From positions 1 to 64,000 of the forward strand of contig NZ_WARX01000006.1 in the NCBI RefSeq assembly GCF_009720385.1: a DNA stretch of 64,000 nt, read 5' to 3'. This stretch comes from Catellatospora vulcania. Its GTDB lineage: Bacteria; Actinomycetota; Actinomycetes; Mycobacteriales; Micromonosporaceae. Position numbers and translations under genes: made by a program. The notes under the pieces were generated by a model, which was not told where the DNA came from, did not search any database, and saw only the letters and a list, made by a program, of their open reading frames with translations. Within the stretch, counting starts at the first letter, position 1. Every line of letters begins with the position of its first letter. Shown here piece after piece: positions 35,037 to 39,646 of this stretch.

Positions 35037-35128
35037 CATGTCCGGCGTCAGGGCCTGACAGTGCCCCGGCATCGGGCGGCGGATCATCCGGCTGGACAGA
35101 TGCCGCATCCGCGGCGGAGCCGGCAGTG

Positions 35129-35194
35129 AAGATCTGTTTTTGTGGACGATGAATGCCCCTCCAGGGGCCGTCGGCGTCCACAAAAACAGATCTT
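35129..35194. repeat. Palindromic element, family II (copy E1)
   Basis: A perfect 20-base arm AAGATCTGTTTTTGTGGACG (35129-35148) pairs with its complement at 35175-35194. An inner GCCCC/GGGGC stem lies in the loop. Its reverse complement matches copy E2 at 36145-36220 through the loop, so the two copies are inverted around one gene. Confidence 0.92.
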
Positions 35195-35223: not shown

Positions 35224-36150
35224 CGTGCGCTGCCGCGGGACGACTCGTCCGATCTCGACTTCCTGCTGTTCCGGCAGAGCGACGTGCTCACCCGGGCGCA
35301 GGCGCTGGCCCATTTCTCCGAGAAAGCCATCCGTCATCGGCTGGACACCGGCCGCTGGCGACGGCCGCGGCGCGGCGTCTACGTCCTGCGCGACGCGCCC
35401 GATGACGACGACCAGCGGCGCTGGGTCGCTGTACTGGCCGGGCCGCCGGGCACGGTGACCGCGGGCCGCACCGCGCTGGCTCAGCTCGGCCTGCGAGGCT
35501 TTCACGTACACGCGATACACCTGCTCATGCCGTCGGCCGCCCGCGACCGCGACACACCGCACGACGTGATCACCCACCGCACCCGACGACTGGAGCCGTC
35601 GGACGTGCACGATCTCGGCAGCCCGCCCTGCACGATGCCCCCACGCTCGGTCATCGACGCGGCACAGTGGGCACGCTCCGACGACGAGGCCCGGTCGGTC
35701 GTCGCGGCCGCGGTGCAGCAGCGGCTGGTGGACGCCGCGGACCTGCGCGCCGTGCTCGCCCGGCTGAGTTCCGTACGGCGGCGTCCGGTGATCACTTTGG
35801 CGGTGAACGACGCGGCAGCCGGAGCAGGGTCGCTGCCCGAGGCGCAGTTCCTGGCGCTGTGCCGCCGAGGCGGCCTGCCACGGCCGAAGCTGCAGGTGAG
35901 CCGCCGTGACGGAACCGGGCGGCAGCGCTACCTGGACGCCCTGTTCGAGCAGTACGGCGTCCACGCCGAGATCGACGGCGCGCAGCACCTCGATGTGCGG
36001 GCGTACTGGGCGGACATGCAGCGGCAGAACGCGTTGTGGGTGCGCGGCGAGCGGGTGCTGCGGTTCCCGGCTTGGGCGATACGCAACCATCCGGACGAAG
36101 TCCTCGAAACGGTCCGTGCCGCCCTGCGGGCCGCAGGCTGGACCGGTTGA
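35221..36150 (+). CDS. Orphan AbiEi-like antitoxin domain fused to a DUF559-like nuclease domain
   Basis: 309 residues. The N-terminus looks like the AbiEi/type IV antitoxin winged helix (FLLFRQSDVLTRAQALAHF, then RGVYVLRDAP). The middle has the AbiEi-like MPPRSVIDAAQWA. The C-terminal 100 residues resemble DUF559/Vsr-like PD-(D/E)xK nucleases: SLPEAQF (E207), YLDALF (D240), HAEIDGAQH (E250, D252). No AbiEii toxin gene is adjacent, so this is an orphan. It is a single gene between two inverted palindromes, and its TGA lies inside the left arm of E2. I start at the GTG at 35221 because upstream sequence is the palindrome. Confidence 0.75.
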   Translation: MRALPRDDSSDLDFLLFRQSDVLTRAQALAHFSEKAIRHRLDTGRWRRPRRGVYVLRDAPDDDDQRRWVAVLAGPPGTVTAGRTALAQLGLRGFHVHAIHLLMPSAARDRDTPHDVITHRTRRLEPSDVHDLGSPPCTMPPRSVIDAAQWARSDDEARSVVAAAVQQRLVDAADLRAVLARLSSVRRRPVITLAVNDAAAGAGSLPEAQFLALCRRGGLPRPKLQVSRRDGTGRQRYLDALFEQYGVHAEIDGAQHLDVRAYWADMQRQNALWVRGERVLRFPAWAIRNHPDEVLETVRAALRAAGWTG

Positions 36151-36220
36151 TGATCTGTTTTTGTGGACGCTGACGGCCCTTATGGGGGCACCCAGCGTCC
36201 ACAAAAACAGATCATCAACC
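36145..36220. repeat. Palindromic element, family II (copy E2)
   Basis: The arms are 28 bases and perfectly complementary (36145-36172 and 36193-36220), with core GATCTGTTTTTGTGGACGC shared with E1. The 20-base loop has an inner GGCCC/GGGGC pairing. It overlaps the stop codon of the preceding gene. Confidence 0.92.
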
Positions 36221-36230
36221 AGCGCAACTA

Positions 36231-36280
36231 AAGGAAGGGCACCTTCTTGAACGCGGAGCGTTAAGAAGGTGCCCTTCCTT
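36231..36280. terminator. Strong bidirectional terminator between leuS and the AbiEi-like gene
   Basis: AAGGAAGGGCACCTTCTT and AAGAAGGTGCCCTTCCTT form an 18-bp stem continued by AACGC/GCGTT, with one bulge. It serves convergent transcripts, ending 11 bases from the leuS stop. Confidence 0.85.
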
Positions 36281-36290
36281 TCTCGAAACG

Positions 36291-39098
<2,808 letters not shown>

Positions 39099-39217
39099 GT
39101 CCAGGTCCTCACGAGTCAGATCAAGATCAAAGTCATCGGGCGGTATGCGGACGCCTCAGCGCGTCGGCGGCGTGCTCCAGGCACACAGAGCCGTCGTCTC
39201 GTGCCGCAAGCGGGCAC

Positions 39218-39242
39218 AAAAAAGCCCCTCACGCAGGAGGGG
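39218..39242 (-). terminator. Attenuator terminator upstream of leuS
   Basis: On the minus strand CCCCTC-CTGCGT-GAGGGG is followed by CTTTTTTG. It lies between the leader peptide stop and leuS. A second hairpin, GCCGTGCT/AGCACGGC (39245-39280), starts at the leader stop codon, as in classical amino-acid attenuators. Confidence 0.88.
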
Positions 39243-39270
39243 TCGCCGTGCTCACGCGCGCTCTGTCGCG

Positions 39271-39309
39271 TCAGCACGGCTCACTAAGGAGCAGCGGGGC
39301 CCAAGCCAT
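39271..39309 (-). CDS. leuS leader peptide (MAWAPLLLSEPC)
   Basis: A 12-codon ORF reads MAWAPLLLSEPC, with three consecutive Leu codons CTG CTC CTT. Its TGA sits in the base of the first attenuator hairpin. A TATCAT hexamer (39316-39321) lies six bases upstream of the ATG, so the leader is probably translated from a leaderless transcript. Ribosome stalling at the Leu codons when charged tRNA-Leu is scarce would favour readthrough into leuS. Attenuation by such peptides is known for leuA and ilv genes in actinobacteria. I infer the same logic for this synthetase. Confidence 0.85.
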   Translation of the reverse strand: MAWAPLLLSEPC

Positions 39310-39646
39310 GACCGCATGATACCCCCGGCCGCGCGAGCCCCGCATCTCGCATAGCTCGCACACCGGCTGATCCCGTACGCCACCCGGCGGCCGGATCCCG
39401 CCATTGCCGCATGCGGCGCGCCTACGGAACACTTGCGGACAAGGCTCTCACTCCCATGCGAGCCGCCCGGCCCGTCGTGCCGGGCGTCCGGCCCAGGTAC
39501 TTGCCCTGCGAAGCAACCTCCCCGACGGAGGTCGGCGTTCTGTCGGGGCGCGAGTGATCAGCAGAATGGTGGGAGGCCCGGGTGAGCGCAGGAAGCGCCC
39601 GTCCCACGGGGGCCAGGCCCCGCAGTTGCGAACTACAGGAGGACAT

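Follow-up and report, generated by a model that had tools for sequence, protein, structure and literature searches.

Classical attenuators upstream of leuS were predicted in S. avermitilis and S. coelicolor by Seliverstov et al. in 2005 (PMC1262725, in the part of the text available). In S. lividans TK24, the available text of a 2021 report (PMC8079986) describes leuL2 (MRAVRLLLSEPR), a small gene before leuS that is transcribed leaderless and is followed by a hairpin and a U-stretch. Here we consider a locus in a 64,000-nucleotide stretch of the Catellatospora vulcania genome (contig NZ_WARX01000006.1, positions 1 to 64,000; hereafter the window). Judged from its sequence, the element is very probably a leuL2-type attenuator, a kind already published for Streptomyces and here seen in another genus. 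Like leuL2 as described for S. lividans, it has a 12-amino acid leader in which three Leu are followed by Ser-Glu-Pro (MRAVRLLLSEPR versus MAWAPLLLSEPC), then a hairpin, a U-run and leuS. Unlike the Streptomyces leuS leaders, it belongs to the Micromonosporaceae. The arms of its first hairpin (P1) read GCCGTGC/GCACGGC, versus GCCGCGC/GCGCGGC at the Streptomyces loci, the P1 loop is shorter, and the Leu codons are CTG CTC CTT, whereas Streptomyces mostly has CTT CTG CTT.

Other known leaders share parts of this arrangement. Actinobacterial ilvB leaders, as outlined in PMC1262725, also combine branched-chain codons in a leader peptide with hairpins and a terminator, and S. lividans ilvL is described as leaderless (PMC8079986, available text); unlike the window element, however, ilvB leaders carry Ile, Val and Leu codons and precede a different gene. 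The polycysteine ORFs of mycobacteria are likewise leaderless regulatory small ORFs in an actinobacterium, but the available text (PMC13236596) concerns cysteine and describes translation attenuation. The window element is unlike the leuA LEU element, a conserved pseudoknot before leuA, in that it precedes leuS and includes a terminator. The trp and his leaders of E. coli have a Shine-Dalgarno sequence and an overlapping anti-terminator. With these leaders the window element shares regulatory codons, a hairpin with pause-like spacing (for hisL, see the available text of PMC9291695) and a downstream terminator, but it is predicted to be leaderless and no conserved overlapping helix was found.

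The locus is read on the minus strand. A -10 box, TATCAT (TANNNT; 39316..39321), is separated by the six bases GCGGTC from the leader ATG (39309-39307), and the leader MAWAPLLLSEPC is encoded at 39271..39309 by the codons ATG GCT TGG GCC CCG CTG CTC CTT AGT GAG CCG TGC TGA. The regulatory Leu codons CTG CTC CTT occupy 39286..39294, with the near-invariant codon CTT at 39288-39286. The predicted P1 hairpin (39245..39280) has its 5' arm GCCGTGC at 39280-39274, running into the stop codon TGA (39273-39271), and its 3' arm GCACGGC at 39251-39245; the pairing comprises 8 bp, a 1x1 mismatch and 5 bp. Two nucleotides after P1 follows an intrinsic terminator, CCCCTC-CTGCGT-GAGGGG-C-TTTTTT (39218..39242), identified by folding and by a terminator scan. 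Its stem-loop spans 39242-39225, C and T6 continue down to 39218, and it lies ~120 nt ahead of leuS. A candidate RNA polymerase pause site, T|G, is located at 39234..39235, 10 nt past the P1 stem. The probable Shine-Dalgarno sequence of leuS, GAGGA (39106..39110, by eye), precedes the ATG at 39098, and leuS (36291..39098) encodes a leucyl-tRNA synthetase of 935 aa (NCBIfam leuS_bact, TIGR00396, 907.1 bits, cut-off 548.4) that is 95% identical to that of C. methionotrophica.

The sequence-only reading of this DNA had described TATCAT, six bases, ATG and the codons CTG CTC CTT, and all are at the positions claimed when the minus strand is reread. A stop codon within an 8-bp hairpin is borne out by the fold, in which the P1 5' arm contains TGA, and a terminator with T6 ahead of leuS by the terminator scan and the fold. 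The statement that all elements of an attenuator are visible is right for the leader, the Leu codons, P1 and the terminator, but a conserved anti-terminator overlapping the terminator was not found. The same reading stressed that the controlled gene is the synthetase; leuS does lie downstream, but such control of it is not novel, having been put forward in 2005 (PMC1262725, available text).

We scanned 164 actinobacterial regions upstream of leuS, namely the window, 63 named loci, 47 same-family genomes (fetched from 60 searched besides the window's own) and 53 class genomes; 17 non-actinobacterial loci (L063-L081 minus L067 and L075) were excluded. A strict leader was defined as TANNNT 3-10 nt before the start codon of a short ORF in which a stretch of four codons encodes three Leu or more. 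Such leaders occur in 95 of the 164 regions: the window, 34/63 named loci, 33/47 same-family genomes and 27/53 class genomes (at L018 the leader start was assigned by motif). A weaker leader, in which one or two Leu codons cluster at the corresponding position, is found in 15 of the remaining 69, and at least two adjacent Leu are encoded in 46 of the 47 same-family genomes (33 strict and 13 weaker). The strict form is absent from 29/63 named loci, 26/53 class genomes and all eight fetched genomes of family f2, and thus the leader is dispensable. In the leuS upstream scan, no leader of any kind was present in those eight f2 genomes, nor in the named Nocardia, Prescottella, Williamsia, Mycolicibacterium, Rhodococcus and Corynebacterium, nor in the named Cellulomonas, Isoptericola, Bifidobacterium, Frankia and Actinomycetospora, among others. 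Locus L118 has a terminator-like hairpin, and no leader is visible there by inspection.

The sequence-only reading had named loss of the Leu codons or terminator in orthologues as the finding that would count against it, and the orthologues favour it. Leu codons and the hairpin pair are retained across Micromonosporaceae, Streptomyces, several Pseudonocardiaceae, Geodermatophilaceae, Brachybacterium and further families. The leader, P1 and terminator of the window can be aligned with the Streptomyces element (alignment A1, covariance model R1; 59 of 63 non-redundant elements, with L008, L026, L044 and L053 excluded for long or odd P1 regions). The covariance model of these 59 elements has matches in 132 of 296 class genomes (E ≤0.001, strict filters), part of which precede genes other than leuS. 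Many actinomycete families carry this switch, which was published for a few Streptomyces.

Within the C. vulcania genome the element stands out. The minimum free energy of the whole leader is -44 kcal/mol (z -3.10; 1 of 200 dinucleotide shuffles was as good), and the only terminator-like site in 39080-39600 is this terminator, versus 0.2 expected. Across the 8.83-Mb genome, there is a single match to the core pattern CTYCTTN6CCGYGCTGA and none to the reversed control. The covariance model of relatives, which includes the window sequence itself among its 59 sequences, gives the window site E 1.6e-16 and the next-best genome match E 1.59. A search of the window against Rfam yielded no family above its cut-off. 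The sole match at E ≤10 in 39050-39450, to a Burkholderia sRNA model (15.9 bits, cut-off 49.5, E 0.3), was taken as chance, and identity with the T-box (RF00230) was rejected, the window having no match over the cut-off. The sole T-box match of the genome is sub-threshold and lies on another contig (C15:204062-204228; 40.9 bits, cut-off 93); it is perhaps an ileS-type T-box of actinobacteria.

Small ORFs are common in GC-rich DNA and a -35 box is missing here, as would suit a chance small ORF ahead of an ordinary terminator. Such a coincidence is refuted by the conservation across families, and the codon choice, the covariation and the single genome-wide match also stand against it; we regard its probability as negligible. 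A sigma-70 scan of 39080-39600 on both strands identified no promoter and no -35 consensus, and other in-frame start codons are present upstream of the leader ATG. Of the 95 strict leaders, 69 have 6 nt and 24 have 7 nt between TANNNT and the start codon, counts that come from a scan that itself demanded TANNNT 3-10 nt before the start, and most Streptomyces loci have the same 6-nt spacing as the window. We infer that transcription starts at the leader ATG. RNA-seq of S. lividans speaks for this leaderless reading: the available text of PMC8079986 describes the orthologue there as transcribed leaderless.

The position of the Leu codons relative to P1 is nearly fixed. In 93 of the 95 strict leaders (all except L008 and L009), the in-frame CCG of P1 follows one of the codons of the Leu run at a distance of exactly three codons, and by in-frame count this Leu codon is CTT in 89 and CTC in four. 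If the codon that ends the Leu run is counted, the figures for the 95 are CTT in 87, CTC in seven and CTG in one. Since the element finder was biased by its limits (it accepted a Leu-to-CCG gap of 6-7 nt only, and only terminators at most 6 nt away), these spacing and gap counts were remade without them. Across 16 leuS genes, picked by hand, CTT accounts for one of 1128 Leu codons, and all 66 Leu codons of the window leuS are CTG, set beside CTG CTC CTT in its leader. The distance from Leu codon to P1 is also maintained in leaders with an early TAG (L087, L096, L103, L108, L110 and L111), and thus the conserved feature is the distance and not the end of the peptide. Selective tRNA charging is already known as a theory of codon choice in attenuators (PMC1183508, available text). 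The L163 element retains a single Leu codon, the CTT (MASQQQRLIGPR, translated by eye).

CTCCTT looks like an anti-Shine-Dalgarno sequence, which bears on a different explanation: the leader could give a fixed read-through, or its CUCCUU could sequester the leuS Shine-Dalgarno sequence, with no leucine sensing by attenuation in either case. Pairing of this sort has been proposed for the leuA LEU element (PMC1262725, available text). However, most Streptomyces leaders have CTTCTGCTT at the same place, without CTCC, for which reason pairing between the Leu codons and the leuS Shine-Dalgarno sequence was rejected by sequence inspection. Neither the fixed spacing from Leu to P1 nor the covariation of P1 is explained in this way, and we consider a translational or constitutive role very improbable.

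In the alignment of 59 sequences, 91.7% of the cells of P1 and the terminator are paired. The covariation score of the two hairpins was equalled in none of 500 shuffles and the number of pairs changed on both sides in 16 of 500, scores that are inflated by the relatedness of the sequences. One pair of P1 is UA in 30, CG in 27 and UG in two of the 59. The gap between P1 and the terminator is 0-4 nt in 91 of 91 folded elements (the 95 strict leaders minus L007, L009, L132 and L139; in L034 and L155 the fold put the upstream hairpin elsewhere), and the upstream hairpin domain is 22-84 nt long.

For partition-function folding we used 104 of the 107 elements found (L086, L151 and L155 were dropped), each in four states: ribosome-free, or with a ribosome at the last Leu position, at the one preceding it or at the stop. 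In every state, the median of the mean terminator pair probability is 0.98. Nine of the 104 have a value below 0.7 in some state, two of them (L044 and L049) when the ribosome occupies the last Leu codon. Since the probability stays high in every state, P1 and the terminator are, as a rule, not mutually exclusive by sequence, and a classical competition between them is unsupported. No conserved anti-terminator helix overlapping the terminator was found in the 104 sequences and four states by this method, which describes equilibrium and does not reach a kinetic anti-terminator. When no ribosome is present, the terminator probability is 0.01-0.16 in L002, L067, L082, L084 and L095; it is 0.79 in the window, and most other elements have high values. 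Pairing between leader and terminator was rejected as a general mechanism, the probability being high in the window and most others.

A kinetic trp-type anti-terminator is the main rival to our reading of the mechanism. P1 would then be the 1:2 hairpin, and stalling at the Leu codons would free its 3' arm for the 5' arm or loop of the terminator, as a 2:3 anti-terminator. The trp and his leaders have the same order of parts, and a ribosome on the last Leu codon partly opens P1, leaving remaining pairs with a median probability of 0.84 and a lowest tenth of 0.19. Anti-terminator hairpins are also stated for the Streptomyces leuS leaders in the available text of PMC1262725. However, in the folds of the 104 sequences the P1 3' arm forms no conserved helix with the terminator, and until its own 3' arm exists the terminator 5' arm stays largely single-stranded (ribosome at the last Leu codon: median paired 0.24; at the stop: 0.33). 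The P1 loop of Streptomyces is moreover ~40 nt long, so a ribosome at the stop is not expected to lie over the P1 3' arm. We regard a trp-type switch as unlikely.

Two features of the terminator deserve mention. In 14 of the 104 elements, including L007, L008, L009, L010 and L034 from Pseudonocardiaceae, a four-T run directly behind the terminator stem is missing, and rho-independent termination is therefore doubtful in those 14. The terminator loop CTGYGY is often conserved, although loops need not be. Pairing of the P1 3' arm with this loop was considered and dropped; by eye, the variable base of P1 does not covary with the loop.

The distance from P1 to a pyrimidine-guanine step in the terminator resembles that of a known pause. 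The hisL pause has a stem-to-pause distance of 10 nt and the consensus G-10 Y-1 G+1 (PMC9291695, available text). Of 72 unique elements, 67 have a Y|G step 10/11 or 11/12 nt past P1 and 33 have G-10 in addition; 500 shuffles of the loop gave on average 28.2 (at most 41) and 9.9 (at most 18), respectively. These counts are weakened by the shared ancestry of the elements. In the window the signature is complete, with 10-nt spacing, G-10, T-1 and G+1.

Taken together, the conserved leader, the fixed spacing between Leu codon and CCG, the covariation of P1 and the S. lividans orthologue favour attenuation, and the element is very probably a leaderless, ribosome-mediated, leucine-responsive attenuator in which the supply of leucyl-tRNA sets the expression of leuS. 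Counted against attenuation are the lack of a conserved overlapping anti-terminator, the 14 elements missing the four-T run, the single Leu codon of L163 and the many loci without a strict leader. According to PMC1262725, regulation by the S. coelicolor ilvB leader was also unaffected when its regulatory codons were mutated. The leucine response and its direction are what we infer from the arrangement of the parts. The RNA would begin at the leader ATG, and a 70S ribosome would load on the 5' end and translate CTG CTC CTT. With ample charged leucyl-tRNA, it would reach the stop codon and mask the 5' arm of P1, which would block P1 and allow termination before leuS. With scarce leucyl-tRNA, the ribosome would stall at the Leu codons, chiefly at the rare CTT, and P1, at its fixed distance downstream, would fold.

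The folded P1 would first probably pause the polymerase within the terminator, given the hisL-like spacing. It could then impede the terminator as it closes in the RNA exit channel, and leuS would be transcribed. This hindrance is suggested by the base of P1 abutting the base of the terminator stem. Inside the polymerase, the base of a terminator is located where the RNA-DNA hybrid has its upstream edge. Closing the terminator would put the base of P1 0-4 nt from that point, where a second duplex should not fit. We put forward this role of P1, by abutment and pausing, as a tentative proposal with slightly less than an even chance of being correct. The mechanism is only partly classical. Near-fixed CTT codons and abutting hairpins give precise, testable predictions for attenuation on leaderless mRNA, where a Shine-Dalgarno sequence is missing and no conserved overlapping anti-terminator is apparent.

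Related elements also precede other genes. We examined what lies downstream of 40 covariance-model matches, a non-random set chosen to cover many families and to include weak or second matches, and identified leuS in 25, cimA in nine and ilvB in three, with three left unassigned (L192, L218 and L226). The cimA calls rest on L214, a citramalate synthase by TIGR00977, and on tblastn with L214 for the others; the ilvB calls rest on NCBIfam for L219 and on tblastn for the others. The 25 LeuS proteins are of two kinds, five being window-like (62-69% identity) and 20 only 35-41% identical. Of the 17 second-kind LeuS entered in a 45-protein tree, 16 group with 12 LeuS from other phyla, apart from the first kind (100/100); the seventeenth, L205, was excluded from the reading of the tree for a wrong-frame translation. 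The second kind sits on a long branch, with a median identity of 39% to the first kind and 39% to other phyla. One genome (G267) carries both kinds, with the leaders MRGLLLLTRPR (L193) and MRAALLLSQPR (L194), each followed by P1 and a terminator. The attenuator thus precedes leuS although the synthetase is of two deeply diverged types, both present in one genome. Since related leaders stand before both, the leader either stayed during gene replacement or was copied.

The cimA leaders (L188, L189, L190, L191 and L213-L217) have Leu/Ile or Val/Ile runs, an abutting hairpin pair and a U-run, as in MFYGLLIIGRRAG (L188). By inspection, most lack TANNNT at leaderless spacing, and therefore we do not claim that they are leaderless. 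Among the literature matches listed, which comprise titles and abstract openings and cover few subscription papers, no publication concerns cimA leaders or leaders before two LeuS types. As a broader proposal, which we hold to be possible and on balance doubtful, this may be a widespread actinobacterial attenuator design without an overlapping anti-terminator. In such a design, a translation-gated P1 would pause the polymerase and then block closure of the terminator, and the same module, with other codons, would serve two diverged LeuS types, ilvB and cimA, the sensor codon in leuS being the almost unused CTT.

In the window genome, the TANNNT-based scan identified no leader before ilvB or cimA. 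Upstream of its ilvB (contig C1), a short ORF (MSTSRPSARVLT), two adjacent hairpins and T6 were seen by eye, possibly the same two-hairpin design.

The 3' side of leuS also has palindromic sequences. Immediately after the gene lies a perfect 19-bp inverted repeat (36230-36281) that is probably a terminator. Beyond the leuS 3' end there are two palindromic copies of a 66-nt element (GATCTGTTTTTGTGGACG...; 35127-35194 and 36145-36220), 82% alike and ~1 kb apart, which looks like a small repeat or REP-like hairpin.
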